A stretch of DNA of 36,574 nucleotides, taken from assembly GCA_900315935.1 (NCBI GenBank), contig ONBB01000018.1, forward strand, positions 1 through 36,574. The letters run 5' to 3'. Below the pieces are notes generated by a model. That model had not been told where the DNA came from. It did not search any database and was given only the letters and a program-made list of their open reading frames with translations. The DNA comes from an uncultured Bacteroidales bacterium. Lineage in GTDB: Bacteria; Bacteroidota; Bacteroidia; Bacteroidales; P3. Shown piece by piece: positions 12,208 to 28,568 of this stretch; position 1 is the first letter of the stretch; each line of letters opens with the position of its first letter. The position numbers and the translations under genes are program-made.

Positions 12208-12249
12208 CGAGTTGTGCGCTGTTAAAATGTTGTTGATAAATTGAAAAAA

Positions 12250-15200
12250 ATGAAGACACCTAATATGAAATTGAAATCGAAACTCCTTTACACTCTTCTC
12301 GCAGCCATTGCGGTGAGTGTTTTGCCGATGAAGATTCAGGCCCAGACGGGACGGTCGTTCACCATCTCCAGTGGCCAGGTAAAGTGGCTCCTGGGGGGGC
12401 AGAGTGGCTCCACCCAGATAATGTCCTACCGCCCGGATGGCTCGCCCGACTACGGTACCTACACCGGTAGCGACGTTACCTTCCAGGTCGACGGCGGCGC
12501 CAACTATCTCGCCCTCAACCCCGCAGGCGACGGCTCGCTGACGGTAACCAACTCCTTCTCCGACCGCTGCGTGTGGCACAACTCCGACAACCCCGGCTAC
12601 TGCTACCAGGAGGTTGAAGGCTACCGCTACTACCTCCGCGGCACCGTCGACGGCTTGAGCGTATGGAAGGTCGCCGTGGGTCAGCCCATCGGCACCGCCA
12701 CCAAGTGGACCGCCCTCGAAGCCGGCGGCTACCTCGACCAGAATTTCGTCCGCAACGGCCAGTCCGTCGTGGCCCGCTACTGGATGATGTTCGACGGCAG
12801 CCTCCCCAAGATGTCCTGTGAGGCTTTGCACCGTCCCGAGTCCAGACGCTTCGTCGCCCAGACCGGCAACGCCTATACCTACTACTGCCCCAACGGCTCC
12901 GGCACCGGCTCCACCGGCGTCGCGGCCGTGCTGCTGCCCGTGCAGACCATCGAGCATGCCGCCAGCGTCCCCGACGCCGCCTCGCAGAATATCGGCGTGG
13001 CCGACATCAGCGGCACCCAGACCCTCAAGCTGGGCGAGAGCTTCAGCCCCGCGGTCGTATACACCCCCGAGGCACAGGCCGGCGCCAACTACAACCTCAC
13101 CGAAGCCTACCGCGAGGTGCGCGTCTGCACCAAACTCAAGGGTCTCACCCTCGCCGGCATCGGCAACGAGTACGTCCACGGCGACCACGGTATCCCCACC
13201 TGGACCTCCTATTACTACTACAGCAGCGATGGCTACGCCACCCGCCGCACCTCCACCCCCACGCCCGTAAGCACCTTTATCTCCTCTGCCTCCGTCAACC
13301 AGTGGCATTGGGAACTCGACAACGCCTCCAAGCGCTACCTCACCATCTCCGGCGAGAACACCGCCAGCCCCACCATCACCTGCATCGCCACCCCGGCTCC
13401 CAACGATGTTACCGCCACCCTCACCGTTTCCGTTACCACCACACAGGGTATCACTGAATCCGCCACGGTAACCTTCACCGTCTCCTCCGATTTCGACCGT
13501 CAGACCCTCACCGAGAGTGAGAACTCCGTCTTCATCAACGGTGCCGTCTTCGGCGGCGGCCGTATGGCCGACATCGATGGCTCCACCGACGTCCTCGTCA
13601 TCAACTGCGACTCCGTCTCCCGCGTCTATGGCGGCAACGACATCTGCGGCACCGTCCGTGACAGCGCCCAGGTCGTCATCGGCAACACCGCCACCTCCGA
13701 CTTCCTCGGCATCAACTCCGTCTACGGCGCCGGCAACGGCTTCTACTCCTACGACGGCACCTCCGCACCCTTCACCGTCTGCAACACCGCCATCGGTGTG
13801 GGTACCCAGGTGCGCAATTGGGGCGACAACTCCGGCGACATCATCGCCACCGTCGACGTGCCCACCAACGTGCCCCTTATATATAAAACTAAAGTATTCA
13901 TTAATTCCGCGTACGCGCGTATAGACACCGTCTTCGGCGGCGCCCGCAACGCCGACGTGGTCCTCCGCCCGGGCATCGCCGCCAACATCGTCGACACCCT
14001 GGCCTCCGTAACCGTCAACAACGGTATCGTCTATGCTGTCTTCGGCGGCAACAACGTCGGCGGCTGCATGAACAACGACACCCTCAACCATGCCCGCTCG
14101 GCTGTCAACATCAACAAGACGGTCCTCAACCCCAACCTCGCCACCGACACCGCTGTGGTCAACAGCTTCTACACCCGCTTCGGTCGCGAGTACGCCCTTC
14201 GCTACGTCTTCGGCGGCGGCAACAAGGTCTTCTCGGCTCTCCGCTCCGACGTCTATGTCAACGGCGGTATGATCGACACCTGCTTCGCCGGCGGCAACAT
14301 GGCCTCCGTCTACCGCGCCAATGTCTATGTCGACTGTAACGACACCAACAAGATCTACCACAACGGCTGGGTAACCGACCACGATTGGGACACCGAGGCC
14401 GACATGGTCGACAAGTGGGTCGGTACCCGCGGCAACTACAATATCCGCGCCCTCTTCGGCGGCAACAACCGCGCCCCCATGGAGTGCGTGCCTGACGTGC
14501 TCCTCATCGCTGGCGGCATCGGCGTCGTCTACGGCGGCGGCAGCGCCGGCGACATGGTCAACGAACGTCTCAACATCGCCTCCGATGTTACCTACGTCGA
14601 GCGCCACCGCAACGCCATCACCAACGCCAAGAACGAATTCAACGAGGCCAAGAACCGCCTCGTGGCTCCGCAGGCCGCCCTCGGCACCTTCATCCACGTC
14701 CCCGCCACCTCCACCGACCTCTGGGTCGACTATCTCTACGGCGGCTGCCGCTCGGCCAACGTCAACCACGCCACCCTCGTCCACCTCGAGGGCGGACACA
14801 TCGGCACCGTCTTCGGCGGCTGCAACATCAGCGGTAACGTCGGCTGGGCCAAAGTGCAGAGTGCTACCGGCCGCGGCCGCGGCGGCACCTACGTCGTCAT
14901 TGACGAGGGCGCCAAGGTCTACGTCGACGTCTTCGGCGGCTCCAATGGCTACTACCACTGCGTCGACAACGAGCAGGCCGCTGCCGCCAAGTACATCGCC
15001 GACCCCCAGTTCACCGACAACCAGGGCACTCCCTTCGACCCCTTCAACGACTATGTCGGCTTCCTCCGTCCCACCCACAACTACACCCACCTCCTCATGA
15101 ACGGCGGCGAGGTGTATGGCAACGTCTACGGCGGCGGTAACCACGCCACCGTCGGTTACTTCAACTCCACCTACGGCTATCCCGATGCCAACGCAGCCGG

Positions 15201-18200
15201 CGGCTTCGCCAGCGGCGAGGCTTCGCCCAAGCACGGCTCCGTCCACCTCTCCCTCATGAAGGGTACCATCCACGGCAACGTCTTCGGCGGCTCCAACATG
15301 TCCACCGTCTACGGCCTCTCCTATTTCTACATCGGCAACAAGGCCGACGGCGAATACGTAACCGTCCTCGGCGACGTCTATGGCGGCAACGACCGCCTCG
15401 GCGATGTCGGTAACGGTGTTACCCTGCCCTTCGCCGACGCCTCCGGCACCGAGCTGACGGCCTCCGACGGCACGCCCCTCAACGACGGCGGTGTCGCCAA
15501 CTATAATACATATATATATGTACAGGGCACCCCGCAAATCAACCGCCTCTTCGGTGGCGGCAACGGCGCCTACAACTACGGTGAGCAGCCCGAGTACGGC
15601 GAGCCCCTCGAGGCTTTCTGCACCAGCACGGCCAACCACACCACCGTCCCTGTGCTCGCCTCCGCTTTCATCGACATCAACACTGACCCCACCGCTCGCA
15701 TCGACACCGTCTTCGGTGGCGGCAACGCGGCCGACGTGCAGGACCACGTCAAGGTGCTCCTCAACACCACCAACCACGACATCAACGACACGACTGTCGG
15801 CGTTATCTTCGGCGGCAATAACCAGGCCTCGATGAACTGTGTCCCCGAGGTGAAGGTCCAGAAGGGTGTCGTCAACACCATCTTCGGCGGTGGTAACATG
15901 GGCCACATGCTCGCCACCACCGACGCCATCCTCGACCAGTGCGGCAATACCGTCCCCTCCGTCTCCTCCTATGTGCTGCTCAACAGCGACGAGGCCACCG
16001 TCCTCGGTGCCGTCTTCGGCGGCTGCAACAAGGCCGACGTCCACGGCATGGCCTACGTGCAGGTTGTCAACACCTCCGACCACGGCGTCGACACCATCTA
16101 CGGTGGTAACGATGTCTCCGGCCGCATCACCGGCGACACCCGTGTCGACATCTTCGGCGGTAACGTCGGTACCGTCTACGGCGGCTCCAACGGCTACTAC
16201 GACTACGAGGAGCACGGCATCAACGACTACCGTGTCCGCACCTTCAACCACGCCCAGAACACCGGCGAAATCCTCTATGAGAATTCCATCGGCTCGCCCT
16301 ATGTCGACGAGACCACCGTCAACATCTTCGGCGGCTATGTCAAGAACAATATCTACGGTGGTGGCCGCATGGGCGACTGCCGTCTGACCAACGTCATCAT
16401 CAACGACGATGTCTGCCCCGGCACCGCCGGTGGCGGCGCCATCCTCCGCGGCCGTGTCTACGGCGGTGGTGAGGGTGATACCGCTCGCCTCGACATCGCC
16501 CACCGCGGTAACGTCCGCGAGGCCACCAACGTCGAGCTCCACCACGCCTCCGACATTATCGCCATCGCCTACGGTGGCGGCAAGGGTGGTGATGTGCACA
16601 ATGCCAACCTGACCTCCTTCGACACCTGGGACGAAAGCTTCCAGAGAATCTTCGGCGGCTGCTGGGGTTCCGATGTTACCGGTACTGCCCGCACCACCAT
16701 CGACGCCAACATGACCATCCTTGCAGGCGACGAGAGCATCTACACCGCAGAGCAGATTTTTGGCGGTAACGACTTCACCGGCAACTGCTTCCGCTCCGAA
16801 CTCATCCTCAACAGCGGCCGCTTCGACACTGTCTACGGTGCCGGTTGCGGTAAATACCCTGCTACGCCCTACCTCACCTCCACCGGTACCTACACCCAGA
16901 ACCGCGACCTCTATGTGCCCAACAACGAAGAGGTGGTGGTTACCGTCAACGGTTCCGACCCGCTTGACCCCTCCGAGACCACCGTCTGGGTCAACGGCAT
17001 TCTCTTCGGTGGCGGCCAGATGGGTACCACCATGCGCTATGTCAAGAACAGCATGGGCCATTACATTGATGCCAGCAACAATGAAATCACCTCTGCCGCC
17101 CAGGCAAAGGTGGCCGACACCAACCTCACCGTCGCCAACGCCCACACCGACGCCAACGACTATGCCTACATCAGCGTCAATGTCCACGGTGGCCAGTTCG
17201 CCAAAGATATTTTCGCCGGTGCCCAGGGTGAGGAAGGCCACAGCCAGCTGGTCTATGGCCTCAAGATGCTCAACATGGACGGCGGTTATGTCAAGCAGTC
17301 CATCTATGGCGGTTCCCAGTCTGTCTCCGACGGCTACAGCCGCCAGGAGTGCAACAGCGATGGCGCAAACGACGGCCGCATCGACGTAACCACCACCATG
17401 CGTCCCAGCTCTGTCCTGAACCTCGTCGGCGGCACTGTCGAGAACCACGTCTACGGCGCCGGCTTCAAGGGCTTCACCTACGGCTCCGTCTATGTCAACG
17501 TCGGTCGCGACGCTGTCGAGAATTCCACCGTATGGCGCACTCCTTACGGCCCCGCCGGCAACCGCACCGATGCCGCCTACGCCGACTTCAAACCCGGCGT
17601 TACCGACGGCATCGCCCCCGCCCTCACCTTCGGCGAACCTCTCATGCTGATAGCTTCCGTCTACGCCGGTGCCAACTGGGGTCAGAACGCTGGAAGCTAC
17701 GAATTTACCGGCAGAGGATTTTATGGTGGTGAAAGTCGCATTCTCATTGATGGAAAAGATTATTCCGACGACAATGTGATGATGGAAATTGGTAATTCCA
17801 TCCTGGGTGCTGGTACTTCCGTTCTCGGCGGCGACCTCTTAAGCAGAATTGACATCCGCAACTATGGCGGTCAGTTTATGTGCGATGCGGAGCAGGATTT
17901 GATGGCCGTCCAGCGTGCGGACGCTCTATATCTTCATAATACGGGTATTAGATATCTCGGTATCACTGATGCCTCTTCTGCTTTATATAGTCCTAATTAT
18001 GCTATCAACAAGGTTGATACGGTCAACGCTGTTGGCTATAACATCATAGAGATAGAAGCTCCTAAGGCTGAGATTTCTCTCCTTCGTTTCTTTGAGGATG
18101 TTGATGATATGACCTGCTACGACTATACCACCTACCCGCAGGCTGGCAACTGCCTCGTTCCCGCTACCCTTGCCGATTTGAACGGAGGTACTCAGGTCTG

Positions 18201-21200
18201 CACCTATGGTGAAGATACTGCCTGCTCCAAACTTAATCGAATTGATCCTAACAATCATAAATACACCGCTCTGTTGATGAACAATGGTGTTACCGTTGAT
18301 GTGCATACCGAAGAGACAGGCTATGGCGGAATCATTGGCTATGGCTACCTTATTGCTCAAGACGGCACCAAGCCTGTTGTTCGTGCTCGTATCAAGAATA
18401 ATTCCACTAATCCCAATGATGGCGGTTTCAGTGAAACCTGTAATAGCAGCAATATGGGTGATGATGGTAGTATGCAGTATCGAACCTATGCTGCTGACGG
18501 CTATCGTTACTGGGCGCCAGGAGGTGGTTTGAGCACCCGCGAGGTGGTACTGCTTGCGCACTCTAATCCTACGCTCCTCGACGAGGATAAAACCATTAAG
18601 GTTACTTCGTCCGATGGCGAAGATGAGCACAACTATAGCCTAGCACACACCCAGATTGTTCTTCCCCCCAGCAAGGCAGGTAACTACTACAAACTTGGTG
18701 TTTCTGGTATCAAGATTAGTGAGGAAAACGATGTAATCAATCTTGTCGATATTACTTGGCGCCCATCTGACTGGAATGCTCCGCAGAATGACGAGTGGGC
18801 CACTCATGAGACACAAGGGTCTAGTGCCAGTGATTGGTTCATCCCTGGAGGCAATCCTGCAAGCTTTGTATCAGAGGAGGCTATTCAGAAAGACCCCAAC
18901 ACCACTTTTGGTATTTTCATGGCTTGTGGCGAGGGTTTCACTACAACTAGGCCGAATACAGAAAACTCCTCTCAGGTGTCGCAAGGTATGACGGTGATTA
19001 CTTCCAACCCCAATGCGGATGTTAAAGGCGATCATAGAGATAGTCCTCGCAAGGGTTTCTATTCCTACACTGTAGCTTCCAACGATGTCTCTCCTGTCAT
19101 GGATCTCTATCTGACCTATGACAACTCCTTCTTCAACTCTGTCCTCGGCTCTGTCAAGTTTGTGTTGGTAGAGTATGGCCCTTCCGGTCAGCCCACGGGC
19201 GACTCTATTTTAGTTGAGGCTTATGTCTCTACCATCATCAATGAGTTCAAGGATATGGAATTCGATCTCATTGCAACCTCTAACGAGGGCGAGTCGAACA
19301 CCTTCCTGCGTCGTGGTATACTTCCTGCTACACTGAGTACCCGTAGCCTCTATATTGAGTCGGTCAAATGGTTCCCCACCAAGCCGAGTCCGGAGAAATC
19401 CATCCCCTATGAGAGTGGCGATCCGCTGGGCTTCACCCTCTCCGGTCACCGTGAAAATCCGGGTTACATCCTTACCAATGACCCGGTGGCCAACCGCTAC
19501 CGCTTCGCCGTCAATGTGCAGCCTGCTGACAACTCTTCCGAAGGAGCAACCTCTGATATCGGATGGTATTCTATAACTAACCATAGTACCGATGTCTACA
19601 CACTGGCCAAGTCCGATCCTGCCACAGGCAATTCGGTCAACAAGGGTAATCTAGCCTCGCTTCTTCCCGTAAGTGCGGCAAATGTTGATACAACCGACCT
19701 CACGGGAGGATTAGATCCTCGCGGTGTTCAGGTAGGTATTCTTGATGGTCGTGGCTTGGCGGGTCTCAATTTCGAACTCTTCTACGATGGCCGCTTTGTT
19801 ACTGAGTGGCGCGGCTACTATGTTGGCGACATTGTTTTGGGCATGAACAGCTATGTTCAGGGCTGCGATGGTTGTGCCCCCAACCCCTTCACTATCACAC
19901 TCCACGTCAAGGTACGTCCTGGCACCGATACCATCTTTGTCGGCACAGTGGATGCGCTTGACCGTGCCCGTCCCGACCTTCCCGGTTCTACATGGCCCTA
20001 TGTAGAGAATCCTCCCAGCATGGATGAGAAGGGGCGTCGTCCCAAATATTGGGTGAAGACCCTCAAGGATGTTGAGGCTATCTGGAAGGAAGGTACCGTG
20101 GTGTGCGTTGTCGATGAGGTTATTGTTGACGAAGACATGACGGAAGGCAACTCGAAGCTGTTTGGAAGCACCAATGCTGAAGAACCGATGGAGATTATCC
20201 GTTACACAGGACACCATAGCGATAAGCCCAACGAGAGTGGCGTATACCGCGGACCCATGATTAATGTTACCGGAGGCGGTAGAGTTGCTTTCCGCAATGT
20301 AATTTTCAAGGGAAGTGCAGTGGGTATGCTGGGCAACACCTATGCCAGCCACTGGCCTGCCAACACGCCCAATTTGATGACCTCTAAAACTTCCACTGAA
20401 CATCTCGTGGCTGATACCAACTTGGTATATGGTCCCATACTTGCCATCACCGATGGTGGTTATGTTTCCCTTGAGAACAATGTAGTGTTTGAGGAAAACT
20501 GGAATGCCTATACCGGAGATAATATTAAACAGCGTGGTGGAGCCATTAGTATTACCGATAGTCGTATTTACGATGCTGGAGGCAATGAAATTGTTGGCGA
20601 CGCACGTAGTACACTCCGTCTGCATAACAATGTAACGGTGCAAAATAATATTGTTGTTAACAACCGAGAAACATTGAATCACAGCGACAATGGTGCCATA
20701 TATCTCGACAAGGCTAATTTGCAATTAGGTAAATCTTCTTTGGGCACTGCAATCAAGATTATTGATAATCACATTGATAAGGTTGTGTCCACAGGAGCCA
20801 AGGCTAGCAGCGTTAAGCCAGAGACGACCTACTGGACTCCTCAGTACGATACGAATACACCTCCAGCCTTGGATAAATGGATTATGGATACCGCTGTAAT
20901 CAATGCTTTGCCCAAGGGTAATGTCTTCTTGACCCGTTCTGCTGGGGACTGGGATGAGGACGGTGTGCCTGATTATGCCCTTGAGGATACTTGGGAGGAC
21001 TATTCCAGCGCAGTTCGGTACTACAATGAAGAGCCTACTGCAGGTACTCGGATAGGAATCTCTCGTTGGTTCCCAGGCGATCCTTCTAAGGGTGAGACCC
21101 CGCGTGATACTATCCAGATTGCATATCACGAAGAATCTGGTACCAATGTTTCGAAGGGTATTTATGAAAAGGGTACTTTCTCATCGGATGAGGGCTATAA

Positions 21201-24075
21201 AATTATGTATAGTCCAATGGTTGACCGAAATCATATCTACGAATATCGCTGCGCAACATTCCGTCATCAAGACATAGCCGTTGGCGATACCGATCCGCTG
21301 CTTTCGGTCTGGGATGACGATTTGGGTGATATGCGTACGATTGCGGTGGACGATGAAGCCTTGGAGTACAAGATAGATCCTATGGCTACCTGTCCCAACG
21401 GAGGCGACTCTCTGATTTATCGTGTCCGCAATGGTTTCTTCCCATACACCTATCGTTGGTTCAACAACGCTGCCACCAATCCTTCACACGCAACCCTCTC
21501 TTCGCGCAATACAGAGACGACCAATATTGCTGTTATGAGTGATATTGAAAGCGGCAACTATTCGAGATTCTTCGATGCTGTAGCAGACACTATAGTGTTG
21601 CCTTATGTTGCGCTTCCCATTGACAACACTCCGCAGGTGCTTGACTACACTGTTACGGCTACGGATGCTTTCGGCTGCCAGGTGTCCAAACGCATCAATA
21701 TCACTATTAAGAAAGACCGCGATGCGGGCAATGCCTTCGCCAAGACGACAACCTACGGCACAAGTGGCACCACCCTCACGGAGCACTGGACCGACACGAA
21801 CTCCTACCTCAACGATCCTACCGTTGTGGCAGCGGGTGAACGCACCTACCGCGGCGTGGTCATCACTCCCTATGCCTGGCCGTCGCACAGCACTGCCGAT
21901 GCTAGCTATGATATCATTACGGCCACTGGTGCCAATGCCCAGTATGCCCACCTGCAGGCCGGTGGAGTCATTGACCTTGCCACCACCAGCTTCTGCGAGG
22001 GCGATGTCATCAACCTCCAGGCAGCGGATAATGCGTCTTCCGCATGTGATGAAAATGGACGCTCGAGCATGGGCTTCATCATGTGGGACTTCGATCCCTA
22101 TGTAGACCAGGTCTATTCTCCCACCTCCAACTACATTGTTCCTCCCGCCGATGCCACCGTCATGGCTTACTATGGCCCGATAAACTACTGGACCGATGTT
22201 ATCTACGATGAGGCTTCCGCTGGTGCCAAGAACGACCCCAACTACTACTTCACTCGCACCAATAACGAGGGCTACATCACCACCTACAACGACGATGTCC
22301 ACATCTACAACGAGGCCGGTCTGGCTTGGCTCATCAGCATCGCCAACGGTCTCAACCTCCAGCAGCTCCGCCAGTTCTACTTCAACCAGATCTACCTCCA
22401 CAAGAAGTCTGACGGCACGCCTTACGACATGGGTTGCTACAAGTGGACGCCCATCGGCAACGCCCAGCATCCTTTCCGTGGCTGGTTCATCGGTGTCGGC
22501 AGCACATACAATGACACCGCCAGACTTGCCAACGGCGACTATGTTGTCATCAAGAACCTCGTTGTCGACGAGCCCCTGATGTCCAATGTCGGCTTCTTCG
22601 GCCACATTGACACTGCCCGCATCAGCGGCATCAAGTTCGAAGGTGCCCTTATGCGCGGTGCCCACCACGTGGGTACCCTCGCCGCCCGCTCGACGCACGC
22701 CCGCATCAACAACGTGGCCGTCGTCGACAGCCTCGAGCGCGATGTAACCACCACCCTGCTTGTAACCCACAACATCTCCGGTGGTCTCATCGGCTACTCC
22801 GAGAACGACATCATCAACAGAACCTCCATCAAGGCCAAGTACCTCGGCGATGCCGTCTACAGCGGCGGTGTGGTCGGTTATGGTAACAAGTCCACCATCG
22901 CCAACAGCGCGGCACGTAACGACAACCGCATGAACGGCCTCTACCTCGGCGGTATAGCCGGTTACCTCAACGGCGATGCCCCGGTCTCCGGTCTCTTCCG
23001 CGCCAAGCGTGCCGGCAATCCCTCGGTGCTGCGCAACAACTATGTGCGCTTCACCACCCACTCCAGCGCCACCCAGGTGGGCGGTCTTGTCGGCCACGCC
23101 GAGAACACCATCATGGAGAACAACTATGTCTACGGCCAGGTTACCAGCCTCTTCTCCGATGGCGGTGTCGCCTCGACGCTGGGCAACAATGCCAATGTCT
23201 CGCACAACTACTATGCCAGTGCCGCGGCCGACAAGGCTGTCGGTTCCACCTCCGGCAACGCTAATCTTTCTGATTACGCCTCCTTCCAGGGTTCCGGCAA
23301 CGCCGTTACCATGAGCGACCGTGTCGACGGTGTGAACAACCTCACCCGCGTACTTAATATCTGGGTGCGTGAGCAGAACACCAACGGTGGCGAATACCTC
23401 ACCTGGACTTCCGACATGGTGGGCGACAACCACGGCTACCCGGTCTTCGGCACTCCCGACCTCATCCCGGTCTACGACAGCGTTGTCCTCGAGAACTGCG
23501 GCGAGGTGGAATGGAACGGCATCCTCTACCATGAGGACACCCGCCTGGTGGTCAACTTCATCGACTCTGTCCAGATGATTGACTCCACCCTGGCCACCAT
23601 CATCCGTGTGCACCACGCCACCTACACCCAGTACGCCGACTCGGCCACCGTCGGTCTCGAGTACTCCGGCTATGGCTTCTATGTCTCCGCCGCCGAGAGC
23701 GAGCTCCTGCGCCGCACCCTCGACAGCGCCGGCTACGCCACCCTCGTCCTCACCGACACCCTCCAGGGCGTCCATGGATGCGACTCCATCATCACCCTCT
23801 CCCTCACCTTCTCCGGCACCAAGGGTGTTACCGACGTCAAGCCTGTGGCTGACATCAAGGTCTACCCGAACCCCACCACCTCGGTGGTCAACGTGGCGAC
23901 CGACGAGATGTCCCGTATCGAGCTCTACGACAACGGTGGCCGCACCCTGCAGAACCACCAGGTCCACGGACAGCCCGTCTTCTCGCTCGACCTCTCGGTC
24001 TATCCTGCCGGTGTCTACTACATCCGCGTCCACACCCCGCATGGTGTAACCATCCAGAAAGTCATTAAACGATAG
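12250..24075 (+). CDS. Giant repeat-rich surface protein with T9SS type A sorting domain
   Basis: This 3941-residue protein begins with a signal peptide (MKLKSKLLYTLLAAIAVSVLP...IQAQ). Residues to about 430 are Ig-like with Thr-rich strands. Residues about 430-1820 hold some 33 copies of a VFGGGN/VYGGSN motif every 40 residues or so, probably a beta-solenoid. About 2610-2850 looks like a right-handed beta-helix (VTGGGRVAFRNVIFKG, GGYVSLENNVVFEEN). About 3350-3680 contains GLUG-like repeats (SGGVVGYGNKSTIANS, VGGLVGHAENTIMENNYVYG). A GCDSIITLSLTF segment and the T9SS type A domain (about 3868-3941, KVYPNPTTSVVNV to IQKVIKR) end it. I infer a surface-anchored adhesin or matrix protein. Starts at TTG 12241, ATG 12250 and ATG 12265 are possible; 12250 is chosen, and 12265 would also leave a good signal peptide. 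Codon usage changes sharply within about 17,700-21,720. Confidence 0.9.
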   Translation: MKTPNMKLKSKLLYTLLAAIAVSVLPMKIQAQTGRSFTISSGQVKWLLGGQSGSTQIMSYRPDGSPDYGTYTGSDVTFQVDGGANYLALNPAGDGSLTVTNSFSDRCVWHNSDNPGYCYQEVEGYRYYLRGTVDGLSVWKVAVGQPIGTATKWTALEAGGYLDQNFVRNGQSVVARYWMMFDGSLPKMSCEALHRPESRRFVAQTGNAYTYYCPNGSGTGSTGVAAVLLPVQTIEHAASVPDAASQNIGVADISGTQTLKLGESFSPAVVYTPEAQAGANYNLTEAYREVRVCTKLKGLTLAGIGNEYVHGDHGIPTWTSYYYYSSDGYATRRTSTPTPVSTFISSASVNQWHWELDNASKRYLTISGENTASPTITCIATPAPNDVTATLTVSVTTTQGITESATVTFTVSSDFDRQTLTESENSVFINGAVFGGGRMADIDGSTDVLVINCDSVSRVYGGNDICGTVRDSAQVVIGNTATSDFLGINSVYGAGNGFYSYDGTSAPFTVCNTAIGVGTQVRNWGDNSGDIIATVDVPTNVPLIYKTKVFINSAYARIDTVFGGARNADVVLRPGIAANIVDTLASVTVNNGIVYAVFGGNNVGGCMNNDTLNHARSAVNINKTVLNPNLATDTAVVNSFYTRFGREYALRYVFGGGNKVFSALRSDVYVNGGMIDTCFAGGNMASVYRANVYVDCNDTNKIYHNGWVTDHDWDTEADMVDKWVGTRGNYNIRALFGGNNRAPMECVPDVLLIAGGIGVVYGGGSAGDMVNERLNIASDVTYVERHRNAITNAKNEFNEAKNRLVAPQAALGTFIHVPATSTDLWVDYLYGGCRSANVNHATLVHLEGGHIGTVFGGCNISGNVGWAKVQSATGRGRGGTYVVIDEGAKVYVDVFGGSNGYYHCVDNEQAAAAKYIADPQFTDNQGTPFDPFNDYVGFLRPTHNYTHLLMNGGEVYGNVYGGGNHATVGYFNSTYGYPDANAAGGFASGEASPKHGSVHLSLMKGTIHGNVFGGSNMSTVYGLSYFYIGNKADGEYVTVLGDVYGGNDRLGDVGNGVTLPFADASGTELTASDGTPLNDGGVANYNTYIYVQGTPQINRLFGGGNGAYNYGEQPEYGEPLEAFCTSTANHTTVPVLASAFIDINTDPTARIDTVFGGGNAADVQDHVKVLLNTTNHDINDTTVGVIFGGNNQASMNCVPEVKVQKGVVNTIFGGGNMGHMLATTDAILDQCGNTVPSVSSYVLLNSDEATVLGAVFGGCNKADVHGMAYVQVVNTSDHGVDTIYGGNDVSGRITGDTRVDIFGGNVGTVYGGSNGYYDYEEHGINDYRVRTFNHAQNTGEILYENSIGSPYVDETTVNIFGGYVKNNIYGGGRMGDCRLTNVIINDDVCPGTAGGGAILRGRVYGGGEGDTARLDIAHRGNVREATNVELHHASDIIAIAYGGGKGGDVHNANLTSFDTWDESFQRIFGGCWGSDVTGTARTTIDANMTILAGDESIYTAEQIFGGNDFTGNCFRSELILNSGRFDTVYGAGCGKYPATPYLTSTGTYTQNRDLYVPNNEEVVVTVNGSDPLDPSETTVWVNGILFGGGQMGTTMRYVKNSMGHYIDASNNEITSAAQAKVADTNLTVANAHTDANDYAYISVNVHGGQFAKDIFAGAQGEEGHSQLVYGLKMLNMDGGYVKQSIYGGSQSVSDGYSRQECNSDGANDGRIDVTTTMRPSSVLNLVGGTVENHVYGAGFKGFTYGSVYVNVGRDAVENSTVWRTPYGPAGNRTDAAYADFKPGVTDGIAPALTFGEPLMLIASVYAGANWGQNAGSYEFTGRGFYGGESRILIDGKDYSDDNVMMEIGNSILGAGTSVLGGDLLSRIDIRNYGGQFMCDAEQDLMAVQRADALYLHNTGIRYLGITDASSALYSPNYAINKVDTVNAVGYNIIEIEAPKAEISLLRFFEDVDDMTCYDYTTYPQAGNCLVPATLADLNGGTQVCTYGEDTACSKLNRIDPNNHKYTALLMNNGVTVDVHTEETGYGGIIGYGYLIAQDGTKPVVRARIKNNSTNPNDGGFSETCNSSNMGDDGSMQYRTYAADGYRYWAPGGGLSTREVVLLAHSNPTLLDEDKTIKVTSSDGEDEHNYSLAHTQIVLPPSKAGNYYKLGVSGIKISEENDVINLVDITWRPSDWNAPQNDEWATHETQGSSASDWFIPGGNPASFVSEEAIQKDPNTTFGIFMACGEGFTTTRPNTENSSQVSQGMTVITSNPNADVKGDHRDSPRKGFYSYTVASNDVSPVMDLYLTYDNSFFNSVLGSVKFVLVEYGPSGQPTGDSILVEAYVSTIINEFKDMEFDLIATSNEGESNTFLRRGILPATLSTRSLYIESVKWFPTKPSPEKSIPYESGDPLGFTLSGHRENPGYILTNDPVANRYRFAVNVQPADNSSEGATSDIGWYSITNHSTDVYTLAKSDPATGNSVNKGNLASLLPVSAANVDTTDLTGGLDPRGVQVGILDGRGLAGLNFELFYDGRFVTEWRGYYVGDIVLGMNSYVQGCDGCAPNPFTITLHVKVRPGTDTIFVGTVDALDRARPDLPGSTWPYVENPPSMDEKGRRPKYWVKTLKDVEAIWKEGTVVCVVDEVIVDEDMTEGNSKLFGSTNAEEPMEIIRYTGHHSDKPNESGVYRGPMINVTGGGRVAFRNVIFKGSAVGMLGNTYASHWPANTPNLMTSKTSTEHLVADTNLVYGPILAITDGGYVSLENNVVFEENWNAYTGDNIKQRGGAISITDSRIYDAGGNEIVGDARSTLRLHNNVTVQNNIVVNNRETLNHSDNGAIYLDKANLQLGKSSLGTAIKIIDNHIDKVVSTGAKASSVKPETTYWTPQYDTNTPPALDKWIMDTAVINALPKGNVFLTRSAGDWDEDGVPDYALEDTWEDYSSAVRYYNEEPTAGTRIGISRWFPGDPSKGETPRDTIQIAYHEESGTNVSKGIYEKGTFSSDEGYKIMYSPMVDRNHIYEYRCATFRHQDIAVGDTDPLLSVWDDDLGDMRTIAVDDEALEYKIDPMATCPNGGDSLIYRVRNGFFPYTYRWFNNAATNPSHATLSSRNTETTNIAVMSDIESGNYSRFFDAVADTIVLPYVALPIDNTPQVLDYTVTATDAFGCQVSKRINITIKKDRDAGNAFAKTTTYGTSGTTLTEHWTDTNSYLNDPTVVAAGERTYRGVVITPYAWPSHSTADASYDIITATGANAQYAHLQAGGVIDLATTSFCEGDVINLQAADNASSACDENGRSSMGFIMWDFDPYVDQVYSPTSNYIVPPADATVMAYYGPINYWTDVIYDEASAGAKNDPNYYFTRTNNEGYITTYNDDVHIYNEAGLAWLISIANGLNLQQLRQFYFNQIYLHKKSDGTPYDMGCYKWTPIGNAQHPFRGWFIGVGSTYNDTARLANGDYVVIKNLVVDEPLMSNVGFFGHIDTARISGIKFEGALMRGAHHVGTLAARSTHARINNVAVVDSLERDVTTTLLVTHNISGGLIGYSENDIINRTSIKAKYLGDAVYSGGVVGYGNKSTIANSAARNDNRMNGLYLGGIAGYLNGDAPVSGLFRAKRAGNPSVLRNNYVRFTTHSSATQVGGLVGHAENTIMENNYVYGQVTSLFSDGGVASTLGNNANVSHNYYASAAADKAVGSTSGNANLSDYASFQGSGNAVTMSDRVDGVNNLTRVLNIWVREQNTNGGEYLTWTSDMVGDNHGYPVFGTPDLIPVYDSVVLENCGEVEWNGILYHEDTRLVVNFIDSVQMIDSTLATIIRVHHATYTQYADSATVGLEYSGYGFYVSAAESELLRRTLDSAGYATLVLTDTLQGVHGCDSIITLSLTFSGTKGVTDVKPVADIKVYPNPTTSVVNVATDEMSRIELYDNGGRTLQNHQVHGQPVFSLDLSVYPAGVYYIRVHTPHGVTIQKVIKR
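13540..17700 (+). repeat. Coding tandem repeats: about 33 VFGGGN-type units
   Basis: The motif (V/I/L)(F/Y)GG(G/N/C/S)(N/R) recurs about 33 times over roughly 1390 residues, a mean spacing near 42 residues. Between motifs, strand-like segments such as ADVxxxVxVNGG alternate with turns. Examples are TVFGGARNADV, NVYGGGNHATV, TVFGGGNAADV and AVFGGCNKADV. Later units decay to YGAG/YAGA. The DNA copies are not identical, so the duplications are old or under selection at the protein level only. Confidence 0.85.
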
Positions 24076-26889: not shown

Positions 26890-26914
26890 ACTCCCCCTAA
26901 CTTAGGGGAGGAGT
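26890..26914. repeat. Right-end remnant of the DUF559-associated repeat
   Basis: The palindromic right end CTAACTTAGGGGAGGAGT stands alone, followed by GAGATGGCCAATTTAGGG. The same flank follows the right end at 27832, so this is the remnant of a full unit whose left part is lost. Confidence 0.75.
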
Positions 26915-26994
26915 TTGAGATGGCCAATTTAGGGGGAGGAGTGTGGCTAATTTAAGGGGAGGAGGAGGCTGGAGCGGTGTGCGTGGTATTTTCA

Positions 26995-27148
26995 CTCCCC
27001 CTCTAAGTTAGAGGGGGTGCCCGCAGGGCGGGGGCGTGTGTCCAGTCCGCGGCTGCACACTCTTTTGTCCGCGCCCCTAATCTCCGTCCGCGCACACACT
27101 CCTCCGTCCGCGCTTCGCGCGTCCACCTCCCCTAACTTAGGGTAGGAG
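26995..27148. repeat. DUF559-associated repeat, unit 1 (154 bp)
   Basis: The left end is ACTCCCCCTCTAAGTTAG within a palindrome, then a small hairpin GCCCGCAGGGC and GGGGGCGTGTGTCC. The right end is CCCCTAACTTAGGGTAGGAG. The two ends are inverted copies of each other. There is one full internal ACACTCCTCCGTCCGCG copy before CTTCGCGCGTCCACCT. Confidence 0.85.
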
Positions 27149-27160
27149 CGTGATACCAAA

Positions 27161-27220
27161 ACTCCCCCTCTAAGTTAGAGGGGGTGGCGCCGCCTGCGGC
27201 GGCGACGGGGGCGTGTGTCC
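27161..27220. repeat. DUF559-associated repeat, unit 2 (left end only, fused to the gene)
   Basis: The left palindrome ACTCCCCCTCTAAGTTAG is followed by a variant hairpin (CGCCGCCTGCGGCGGCG in place of GCCCGCAGGGC) and GGGGGCGTGTGTCC. The DUF559 reading frame ends inside this unit, so the repeat encodes its last residues and stop codon. No right end is seen. Confidence 0.8.
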
Positions 27221-27622
27221 CCATTCTGTAAGCATTGTTCCACAGAAACCGTTCCGCTGCCCTTGGGCAAAGAGCCGTATGTCGTCCAGTATATGGTTCG
27301 GGCGCTCAAAGACGATGCGGTTTTCGTACCGCAGCACCGTGATGCCGTGTTCGGCCAGTAGGAGCCTATCGCGGTCGAAGTCCTCCTGTCGCCGCCCCCA
27401 GATGCCGTTGTTGTGCACCTGCCCGTCCAGTTCCAGCGCCAGACGTAGCGCTGGGCAGTAGAAGTCAAGGATGGCAAGTCCCACACTGAACTGACGACGG
27501 AACATCAACCCTTCAATCTGTCTTCCTTTGAGTCTTTTCCACAGCGCTGCCTCGGCCGGAGTGCCGTTGGTACGCAGGTCGCGGCGGAAGTCTTTCAGAT
27601 AATTTAGGTTGTGGGTTTTCAT
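27170..27622 (-). CDS. DUF559 endonuclease-like protein
   Basis: This 150-residue protein belongs by recognition to the DUF559 family, related to the very-short-patch-repair (Vsr) type of the restriction endonuclease-like fold. Visible features are the N-terminal RRDLRTNGTPAEAALWKRL, the core DFYCPALRLALELDGQVHN with the likely metal-binding Asp/Glu, then RDRLLLAEHGITVLRYEN. The family core ends near ILDDIRLFAQG. The last 25 or so residues (ending TPPSPPQAAPPPLT) are encoded by the flanking repeat and are probably not functional. The biochemical role of the family is not established; a nuclease acting on its own repeat is conjecture. No TAnnTTTG promoter is evident upstream. Repeat units lie on both sides. 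Confidence 0.85.
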   Translation of the reverse strand: MKTHNLNYLKDFRRDLRTNGTPAEAALWKRLKGRQIEGLMFRRQFSVGLAILDFYCPALRLALELDGQVHNNGIWGRRQEDFDRDRLLLAEHGITVLRYENRIVFERPNHILDDIRLFAQGQRNGFCGTMLTEWGHTPPSPPQAAPPPLT

Positions 27623-27659
27623 TATTGTGTTTTTTTAATATTTGCTATATCTAGTTTCA

Positions 27660-27832
27660 ACTCACCCTCTAAGTTAGAGGGGGTGCCCGCAGGGCGGGGG
27701 CGTGTGTCCAGGCCGCGCCAGCGCGCTCTTCTGTCCGCGCCCCTACTTTCCTCCACGCATACACTCCTCCGTTTGCACACACTCCTCCGTCCGCGCTTCG
27801 CGCGTCCACCTCCCCTAGCTTAGGGGAGGAGT
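27660..27832. repeat. DUF559-associated repeat, unit 3 (173 bp)
   Basis: It has the same ends as unit 1: ACTCACCCTCTAAGTTAG on the left and CCCCTAGCTTAGGGGAGGAG on the right. The internal part has two ACACTCCTCCG copies, one ending TTTG and one TCCGCG, one copy more than unit 1. Confidence 0.85.
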
Positions 27833-27872
27833 TGGAGATGGCCAATTTAAGGGGAGGAGTTGAGGTACCAAA

Positions 27873-28065
27873 ACTCCCCCTCTAAGTTAGAGGGGGTGCC
27901 CGCAGGGCGGGGGCGTGTGTCCAGGCCGCGGCTGCACACTCTTCTGTCCGCGTCCCTACTTTCCTCCGCGCATACACTCCTCCGTTTGCACACACTCCTC
28001 CGTCCGCTCACACACTCCTCCGTCCGCGCTTCGCGCGTCCACCTCCCCTAACTTAGGGGAGGAGT
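27873..28065. repeat. DUF559-associated repeat, unit 4 (193 bp)
   Basis: It has the same ends as the other units and three internal ACACTCCTCCG copies, which accounts for its extra 20 bases over unit 3. Its right end forms a 9-bp stem (CCTCCCCTA/TAGGGGAGG, 28042-28062) followed by AGTTTTTGG, so it may also terminate plus-strand transcripts. Confidence 0.85.
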
Positions 28066-28464: not shown

Positions 28465-28482
28465 ATCTTGTGTCTTTTGTTT

Positions 28483-28568
28483 CTAGCGGTTCTAGACAAT
28501 CTATTTTTTTCTAGCGGTTCTAGATTTTCTAGTGATTCTAGATTTTCTAGAAATTCTAGTTTATCTAG
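28483..28568. repeat. 9-bp tandem array with TTCTAG core between lptD and merR
   Basis: CTAG occurs at 28483, 28492, 28511, 28520, 28529, 28538, 28547, 28556 and 28565. There is a degenerate CTAT at 28501 and one extra base before 28511. Apart from that the period is exactly 9 bp, with unit nnTTCTAGn. The last CTAG contains the TAG stop of lptD. Confidence 0.92.

Follow-up and report, generated by a model that had tools for sequence, protein, structure and literature searches.

A DUF559 gene among inverted-repeat ends in Bacteroidales: a candidate compact mobile element with gene-free short copies

Results

Arrangement of the gene and its repeats

We analysed a 36,574-nucleotide (nt) stretch of DNA from an uncultured Bacteroidales bacterium (contig ONBB01000018.1, assembly GCA_900315935.1), referred to throughout as the window, in which a gene of the DUF559 family (PF04480) lies within a cluster of inverted repeats between 26.9 and 28.1 kb that we examine here as a candidate mobile element. 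The cluster contains the following features:

26891–26913, plus strand: orphan right-end palindrome (CTCCCCCTAACTTAGGGGAGGAG)
26921–26964, plus strand: two decayed right-end pieces (AATTTAGGGGGAGGAG type; repeat family D5)
26994–27148, plus strand: short (candidate non-autonomous) unit 1, left end 26994–27019, right end 27126–27148
27161–27220, plus strand: left end 2, made up of a hairpin, a second hairpin (GGCGCCGCCTGCGGCGGCG) and GGGGGCGTGTGTCC; encodes the DUF559 C-terminus and stop
27170–27622, minus strand: DUF559 (PF04480) gene for a predicted nuclease of the Vsr/EDxHD fold, 150 amino acids
27660–27831, plus strand: short unit 3, left end 27660–27685, right end 27809–27831
27873–28064, plus strand: short unit 4, left end 27873–27898, right end 28042–28064

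The ends follow one another as an orphan right end, then L1–R1, L2–DUF559, L3–R3 and L4–R4. An original prediction, made from the sequence of the window, had described four left ends with matching right ends as inverted copies of each other. All four left ends are present (26994, 27161, 27660 and 27873), and their motif matches 12 times against 0.04 times expected from shuffles, a count taken on both strands in which one palindrome may score twice; the right-end palindrome, counted in the same way, gives 7 matches against 0.00 expected. The four left ends are met by three full, paired right ends, besides which there are the orphan palindrome and the two decayed pieces. Left and right ends are one design inverted, as predicted, being 77–87% complementary over 25–34 nt, and units 3 and 4 share 95% identity over 136 nt. 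The orthologous locus of the sister genome G001 has the same arrangement with one short unit fewer than the genome of the window (G000). An Rfam scan of the window matched no known RNA and no intron. A clustered regularly interspaced short palindromic repeat (CRISPR) locus was ruled out, the repeats being hairpin units of varied spacing that form no regular array.

The open reading frame (ORF) at 27170–27622 matches PF04480 with E = 3e-23 and a profile score of 82.2 bits against a curated cut-off of 20.6. Its stop codon (27170–27172) and last 16 residues (GHTPPSPPQAAPPPLT) are encoded by left end L2, which bears out the claim that the end of the gene is read from a repeat. The DUF559 fold is Vsr-like, of the PD-(D/E)XK or homing-endonuclease-like kind, in line with the Vsr-type nuclease fold proposed earlier, and among relatives of solved structure and known function the nearest is the homing endonuclease I-Bth0305I (PDB 3r3p). 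Residues E24, D53, E64, H70 and D81, which may include catalytic ones, are invariant in 46 DUF559 sequences.

Repeat types and gene types in the genus

With up to three mismatches allowed, the left-end motif matches 50 and 62 times on the two strands of G000 (2.29 Mb) against 2 and 1 times for the reversed pattern, and a broader hairpin pattern covering both repeat types of this genome occurs 57 times. The second DUF559 gene of G000 (C8) sits between fabF and fabZ and is flanked on both sides, in inverted orientation, by a different palindrome. Across 59 genomes of the genus, that of the window included, PF04480 matches in 23, and 14 genomes hold 18 full-length loci, the flanks of which were all read. 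Three repeat types, A (that of the window), B (CCTCACCCC...GGGGTGAGG) and C (CATACCCC or similar), adjoin DUF559 genes of differing sequence types: the six type-C proteins form one clade in the protein tree (support 100/100), the A-type proteins also lie together, and of the seven B-type proteins five group (93/92), L034 and L036 being unplaced. An inverted or direct repeat scoring at least 18 lies across the gene in 14 of the 16 loci whose flanks were of sufficient length; the other two (L042, L056) have no across-gene repeat at this threshold and carry repeats on one side. The orientation of the ends, with the hairpin outside or inside, also clusters on the DUF559 tree (5 changes against 10.3 and 8.0 when shuffled), where the labels were assigned by eye from 32 of 44 loci listed and 30 of 127 entries are absent from the tree, having been missed by the motif.

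The repeats are multi-copy mainly where a matching DUF559 gene exists. Type A exceeds two matches in six genomes (80, 24, 14, 9, 8 and 7), four of them with an A-type gene; in G034 (68% complete), another of the six, none was detected. Type B reaches 68, 34, 27, 21 and 16 matches in five of the six genomes with a B-type gene, and the sixth, G010, has a single match and a variant at its one visible end. No gene was detected in G022 and G015, with 8 and 7 type-B matches, and the remaining 51 genomes have 0–2. The genome search for PF04480 may miss genes, as its E. coli control was unmatched though most E. coli carry ycjD, unless the control strain lacks ycjD.

Several type-A units, probably duplicated together, are also carried by paralogous proteins beginning MAKLEQGILGPFRGKVGTVVGY or similar (L005, L008, L013, L022, L024, L122, L124, L125 and L127), which we take to be DUF6266-like.

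Association across phyla and with repeat copy number

We searched 80 named DUF559 loci, 77 with usable flanks, for repeats between the 350 nt upstream and the 350 nt downstream of the gene. The best across-gene inverted repeat reached a score of at least 16 in 44 of the 77 loci against 2 of 924 equally spaced windows on the same contigs, and an inverted or direct repeat scoring at least 18 was present in 56 loci against 10 of the control windows. By phylum, the latter was found in 43 of 60 loci from Bacteroidota, 3 of 4 from Pseudomonadota, 3 of 4 unranked, 2 of 2 from Acidobacteriota and 1 of 1 each from Nitrospirota, Thermodesulfobacteriota, Doudnabacteria, Planctomycetota and Fidelibacterota, and in 0 of 1 each from Verrucomicrobiota and Armatimonadota. 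Among 32 loci listed, most share by eye a common end design, CTCCCCTCC..GGAGGGG, an optional small hairpin and GGGGTGG, which occurs in either orientation relative to the gene. On a Pseudanabaena plasmid (L385), a cyanobacterial DUF559 gene lies between long inverted repeats (score 63) of the CCCCCAATTCTGGGGG type, a further repeat family that is similar in style.

Within Bacteroidota, DUF559 predicts hairpin copy number, both inside families and independently of the transposase family of repetitive extragenic palindromes (REP). PF04480, taken at E 1e-15 or better and including in-frame and fused forms, is present in 162 of 395 genomes. The hairpin CCCCTCN{2,14}GAGGGG has a median of 7.5 copies in these genomes against 2 in the 233 without DUF559 (Mann–Whitney U test, p = 2e-24), the medians of a control hairpin of the same composition being 1 and 1 (p = 0.97); an excess of at least 10 hairpins occurs in 68 of the 162 against 13 of the 233. 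Shuffling within families reached the observed effect in 0 of 5000 trials. The Y1 family of REP-associated tyrosine transposases (RAYT) is present in 208 of the 395 genomes, with two matches in G000. Y1 has no effect on hairpin number in genomes without DUF559 (p = 0.40); DUF559 has one in genomes without Y1 (p = 2e-9) and also in those with it. Stratified by family and by the other label, shuffles reached the observed effect in 0 of 5000 trials for DUF559 and in 562 of 5000 for Y1. Inside DUF559-positive genomes, Y1 goes with more hairpins (p = 0.009).

Filled sites, empty sites and termini

The original prediction had pointed to filled and empty sites in close relatives as the way to define the ends and any target duplication, and both states exist. 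Type-B repeats occupy the fabF–fabZ junction in G000 and G001 and both the fabF–fabZ and the fabZ–fabG junctions in G004, G007 and G012, with DUF559 at one junction; the fabF–fabZ region is empty in near relatives such as G024, G009 and G022 (30 loci read, of 52 genomes matched). Between etfB and etfA, G001 has a DUF559 element; none of the other 22 loci read has a DUF559 match near etfA, though one of them, G012, has a single palindrome there. The etfA start ATGAACARCG is missing beside the G001 element, within which an in-frame ATG could replace it.

The termini were compared in 20 type-B short copies (13 in G012, 6 in G007 and 1 in G001), picked as inverted pairs, with up to two motif mismatches allowed. 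The ends are sharp: the left end reads RG before CCTCACCCC in 20 of 20, the right end GGGGTGAGG followed by CY in 19 of 20, the core is 92 bp long in 10 of 20, and none of the 20 has a target duplication. The end letters of DUF559-bearing type-B copies agree with these, apart from L034, the one visible end of which is a variant, and L055 differs in the base immediately outside the end. Counterparts in G000 and G001 of copies found in a single genome were sought by synteny, and four comparisons gave no BLAST match.

In-frame insertion into host genes

Some reading frame is open across the element and 100 nt on each side in 15 of the 20 type-B short copies, including 13 of 13 in G012, and with frames so often open in the short copies, genes may tolerate their insertion. 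The hosts in G012, named by Pfam, are an ABC-F ATPase, an oligopeptide ABC ATPase, NqrA, a glycosyltransferase, TruB, a radical SAM protein, a beta-mannosidase-like protein and a transglutaminase; Pfam matched nothing in 2 of the 10 frames queried. The ABC-F linker is NICYRDLIDD in an empty relative, and G012 has NI and LIDD with 32 element residues between them, so that four codons are replaced. Other in-frame inserts are present at the same ABC-F loop in other genomes. In G000, G002, G036 and G004 (L373, L375, L377 and L378) the loop carries a different in-frame inverted repeat of the TTGCGTTAATGCG...CGCAATCA type, noted also in the etfB–etfA spacers of some relatives. This loop appears to be a hotspot at which unrelated palindromic families insert. 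Four units lie in frame within the 404-residue frame of menG in G000, and no type-A unit was found in menG of the 25 relatives with a readable segment (of 29 other loci).

DUF559 itself lies in frame inside LeuS in three genomes, MetH in four (all at one site), HsdR in three (at two sites) and IspE in one, hosts of which Pfam confirmed one of each, the rest being named by reading, and in restriction-type genes too. Chains of LeuS and MetH in the PDB align to the host sequence either side of the DUF559 segment, which itself stays unaligned, and a Pfam scan of four DUF559-containing host ORFs (L282, L289, L287 and L064) found no splicing domain or intein. On the DUF559 tree, the MetH group, from three families, is one clade (97/93), as is the HsdR group (100/100), and the LeuS group is weak (86/53). 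Such host-specific clades may reflect either old inheritance or homing at those sites.

A triplex-type end and E. coli ycjD

The ends have a G-rich tail that frequently mirrors the purine arm of the hairpin when A is allowed to become T, as in the triad rule of purine-motif triplexes. Informative purine hairpins number 276 in the 154 windows that flank DUF559 genes and 32 in 1294 control windows. Of those in the flanks, 80 are followed by a mirror copy alone and 3 by a direct copy alone, a count whose p-value is too strong, as hairpins of one array are counted separately; the hairpins of the control windows have the same mirror bias (mirror 11, direct 2, of 32). A hairpin with a mirror third strand lies within 350 nt of the gene in 59 of the 77 loci. 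Read from its letters, the end architecture is that of a predicted intrastrand triplex, the published BoxC/PIT design of a purine hairpin with a mirror third strand.

Catalogues of BoxC/PIT-type repeats go back to the 1990s, and we know of no agent for them. According to Holder et al. 2015, the intrastrand triplex motif, formerly BoxC or PIT, has 23 copies in E. coli MG1655, all intergenic, was studied for its folding in E. coli, is linked to instability and was never found near transposases or integrases (PMC4666352). E. coli ycjD is annotated DUF559, and its C-terminus and stop lie within a triplex-type motif in strain CH4796 (SPSPQPSP) and within a decayed motif in an MG1655 derivative (SPSP). 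The 3′ anatomy is the same as that of the window gene, and the 5′ side has a different palindrome. The repeat group tied to DUF559 probably includes a classic E. coli repeat. Of 5426 E. coli genomes, 3361 contain 80% or more of the ycjD query region. A simple empty ycjD site in this species was rejected, since all three ycjD-less strains viewed have efflux genes beside sapF; in these strains (L387, L388 and L389) a major facilitator superfamily (MFS) efflux gene and an outer-membrane efflux gene adjoin sapF.

Discussion

We consider it probable, at roughly 0.65, that these repeats and genes belong to a widespread family of compact mobile elements in which an autonomous copy carries DUF559, short copies are gene-free, and the nuclease would move both. 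The cluster in the window is best explained as one autonomous copy with several short copies, as judged from sequence. The proposal of an autonomous element with non-autonomous copies was made originally for the window; it agrees with the dispersed same-type repeats, the shared type-B termini, the filled and empty sites and the Vsr-like fold. An autonomous copy would consist of a single DUF559 gene among ends of one design, each a purine-rich hairpin, often a small second hairpin and then the mirror purine strand, and short copies would retain these ends without the gene. DUF559 may recognise or bind its own folded end and nick or cut it, after which host repair would insert the element, once freed or copied, at a break elsewhere, losing a few target bases and making no target duplication; tandem arrays would grow and shrink through recombination between units. 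We favour break repair over a transposase because there is no target duplication and few target bases are lost, the latter in two cases (etfA and ABC-F).

Several observations weigh against a mobile-element family. The window gene had been predicted to be framed by inverted ends and lies instead between two left ends of the same orientation, with no clean L...R pair. Repeats without DUF559 and DUF559 genes without repeats, which the original prediction had named as unfavourable to it, both occur, as exceptions only: the former in G046 (98% complete, 14 type-A matches), G034, G015 and G022 and in the 13 of 233 DUF559-negative Bacteroidota genomes with a hairpin excess of at least 10, the latter in the 21 of 77 loci without a repeat at threshold. 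G009 has an A-type gene and 1 type-A match, and E. coli genomes without ycjD keep 1–5 further places matching the query, as repeats or the fabI-side flank. The 15 open frames in 20 may owe something to chance, and GC-rich frames stay open easily. The G001 copy of menG, with one unit, has its frame broken upstream of that unit and is adjoined by a second menG without a unit; insertion is not always harmless, given this broken frame. Empty sites were compared between species, few cases define the exact junctions, and the deletions may have arisen later; neither transposition nor cleavage has been observed.

It is also conceivable, if unlikely, that DUF559 acts by homing, cutting specific host sites or empty alleles, the palindromes being passenger ends and the short copies decayed homing elements. 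The relationship to I-Bth0305I would fit, as would the placing of DUF559 in the EDxHD homing family by one source (PMC9403480), the single MetH clade at one site in three families and the single HsdR clade. Near-identical termini on gene-free short copies at many unrelated sites are unlike site-specific homing, however, HsdR inserts occupy two positions, and a host-specific clade may equally be one old insertion, vertically inherited. We give still less weight to a scheme in which RAYT/REP, insertion sequences (IS) or repair-driven template switching at hairpins move the repeats and DUF559 is a frequent passenger in repeat-rich DNA. Repeats without a detected DUF559 gene exist, and Y1 is common and goes with more hairpins in DUF559-positive genomes; RAYT as the mover is nevertheless disfavoured by the absence of a Y1 effect without DUF559 or after stratification, with a DUF559 effect in both Y1 strata. 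Differing DUF559 types moreover have differing repeats even in one genome, and inverted repeats adjoin the gene. A host-serving DUF559 that processes or repairs triplex or hairpin repeats, or uses them as terminators, with no role in mobility, seems to us very improbable: one report has the Caulobacter DUF559 protein VsrA as a predicted mismatch-repair endonuclease (PMC12907096), and repeats near the gene end could terminate transcription, but full-length genes are patchy (14 of the 59 genus genomes), the repeats differ between close species, lie on both sides of the gene and insert into coding genes.

The mobile-element family shares features with several known systems. REP and REPIN sequences with RAYT are dispersed palindromes in arrays and inverted pairs, as are the DUF559-linked repeats, which differ in having a nuclease of another fold and in that Y1 does not predict them in genomes without DUF559. 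Autonomous and non-autonomous copies with shared terminal inverted repeats (type B) recall miniature inverted-repeat transposable elements (MITEs) with an IS transposase, unlike which the 20 copies compared have no target duplication and the sole gene encodes a Vsr-fold protein. Unlike EDxHD homing endonucleases such as I-Bth0305I, DUF559 comes with terminal inverted repeats and gene-free copies at many sites, and unlike intron or intein homing endonucleases it has no splicing domain in the four host ORFs scanned. The BoxC/PIT triplex motif is likewise a hairpin with a mirror third strand, dispersed in inverted pairs through many genomes; its source reports neither transposase nor integrase nearby and only intergenic sites in MG1655 (PMC4666352), where the DUF559 family has a nuclease gene among the motifs and, in Bacteroidota, in-frame coding insertions. 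Rickettsia palindromic elements (RPE) are similar in description, being short and palindromic with a conserved ORF and lying in frame in unrelated genes; they occur in different genomes, and the part of the source available names no mobilising enzyme for them (PMC10969869).

More tentatively, with the balance slightly against it, DUF559 may define a transposon-like class in which a Vsr/EDxHD nuclease recognises triplex or hairpin ends, moves both itself and the gene-free copies with no target duplication, inserts in frame in essential genes without splicing, and is the missing agent of BoxC/PIT repeats across bacteria, E. coli included. The DUF559 link may explain how palindromic repeats spread, even into the middle of working genes, and a single-gene nuclease partner opens the origin of BoxC/PIT to direct tests, in Bacteroidota and, through ycjD, in E. 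coli K-12. If correct, it would give selfish DNA a non-intein route in frame into protein-coding genes such as LeuS, MetH, TruB and NqrA, and might account for the instability that triplex motifs are reported to show. We found no paper joining DUF559 to these repeats in a search mostly limited to open-licence papers, among which none of the 15 naming DUF559 or PF04480 is about repeats by title.

Other features of the window

TCTAG repeats at 9-nt spacing (28467–28567; repeat family D3) lie immediately upstream of a merR-like gene. At 12241–24075 on the plus strand, the window holds a very large ORF of 3944 amino acids with many repeated segments, the C-terminus of which is presumably type-IX-secretion-like.
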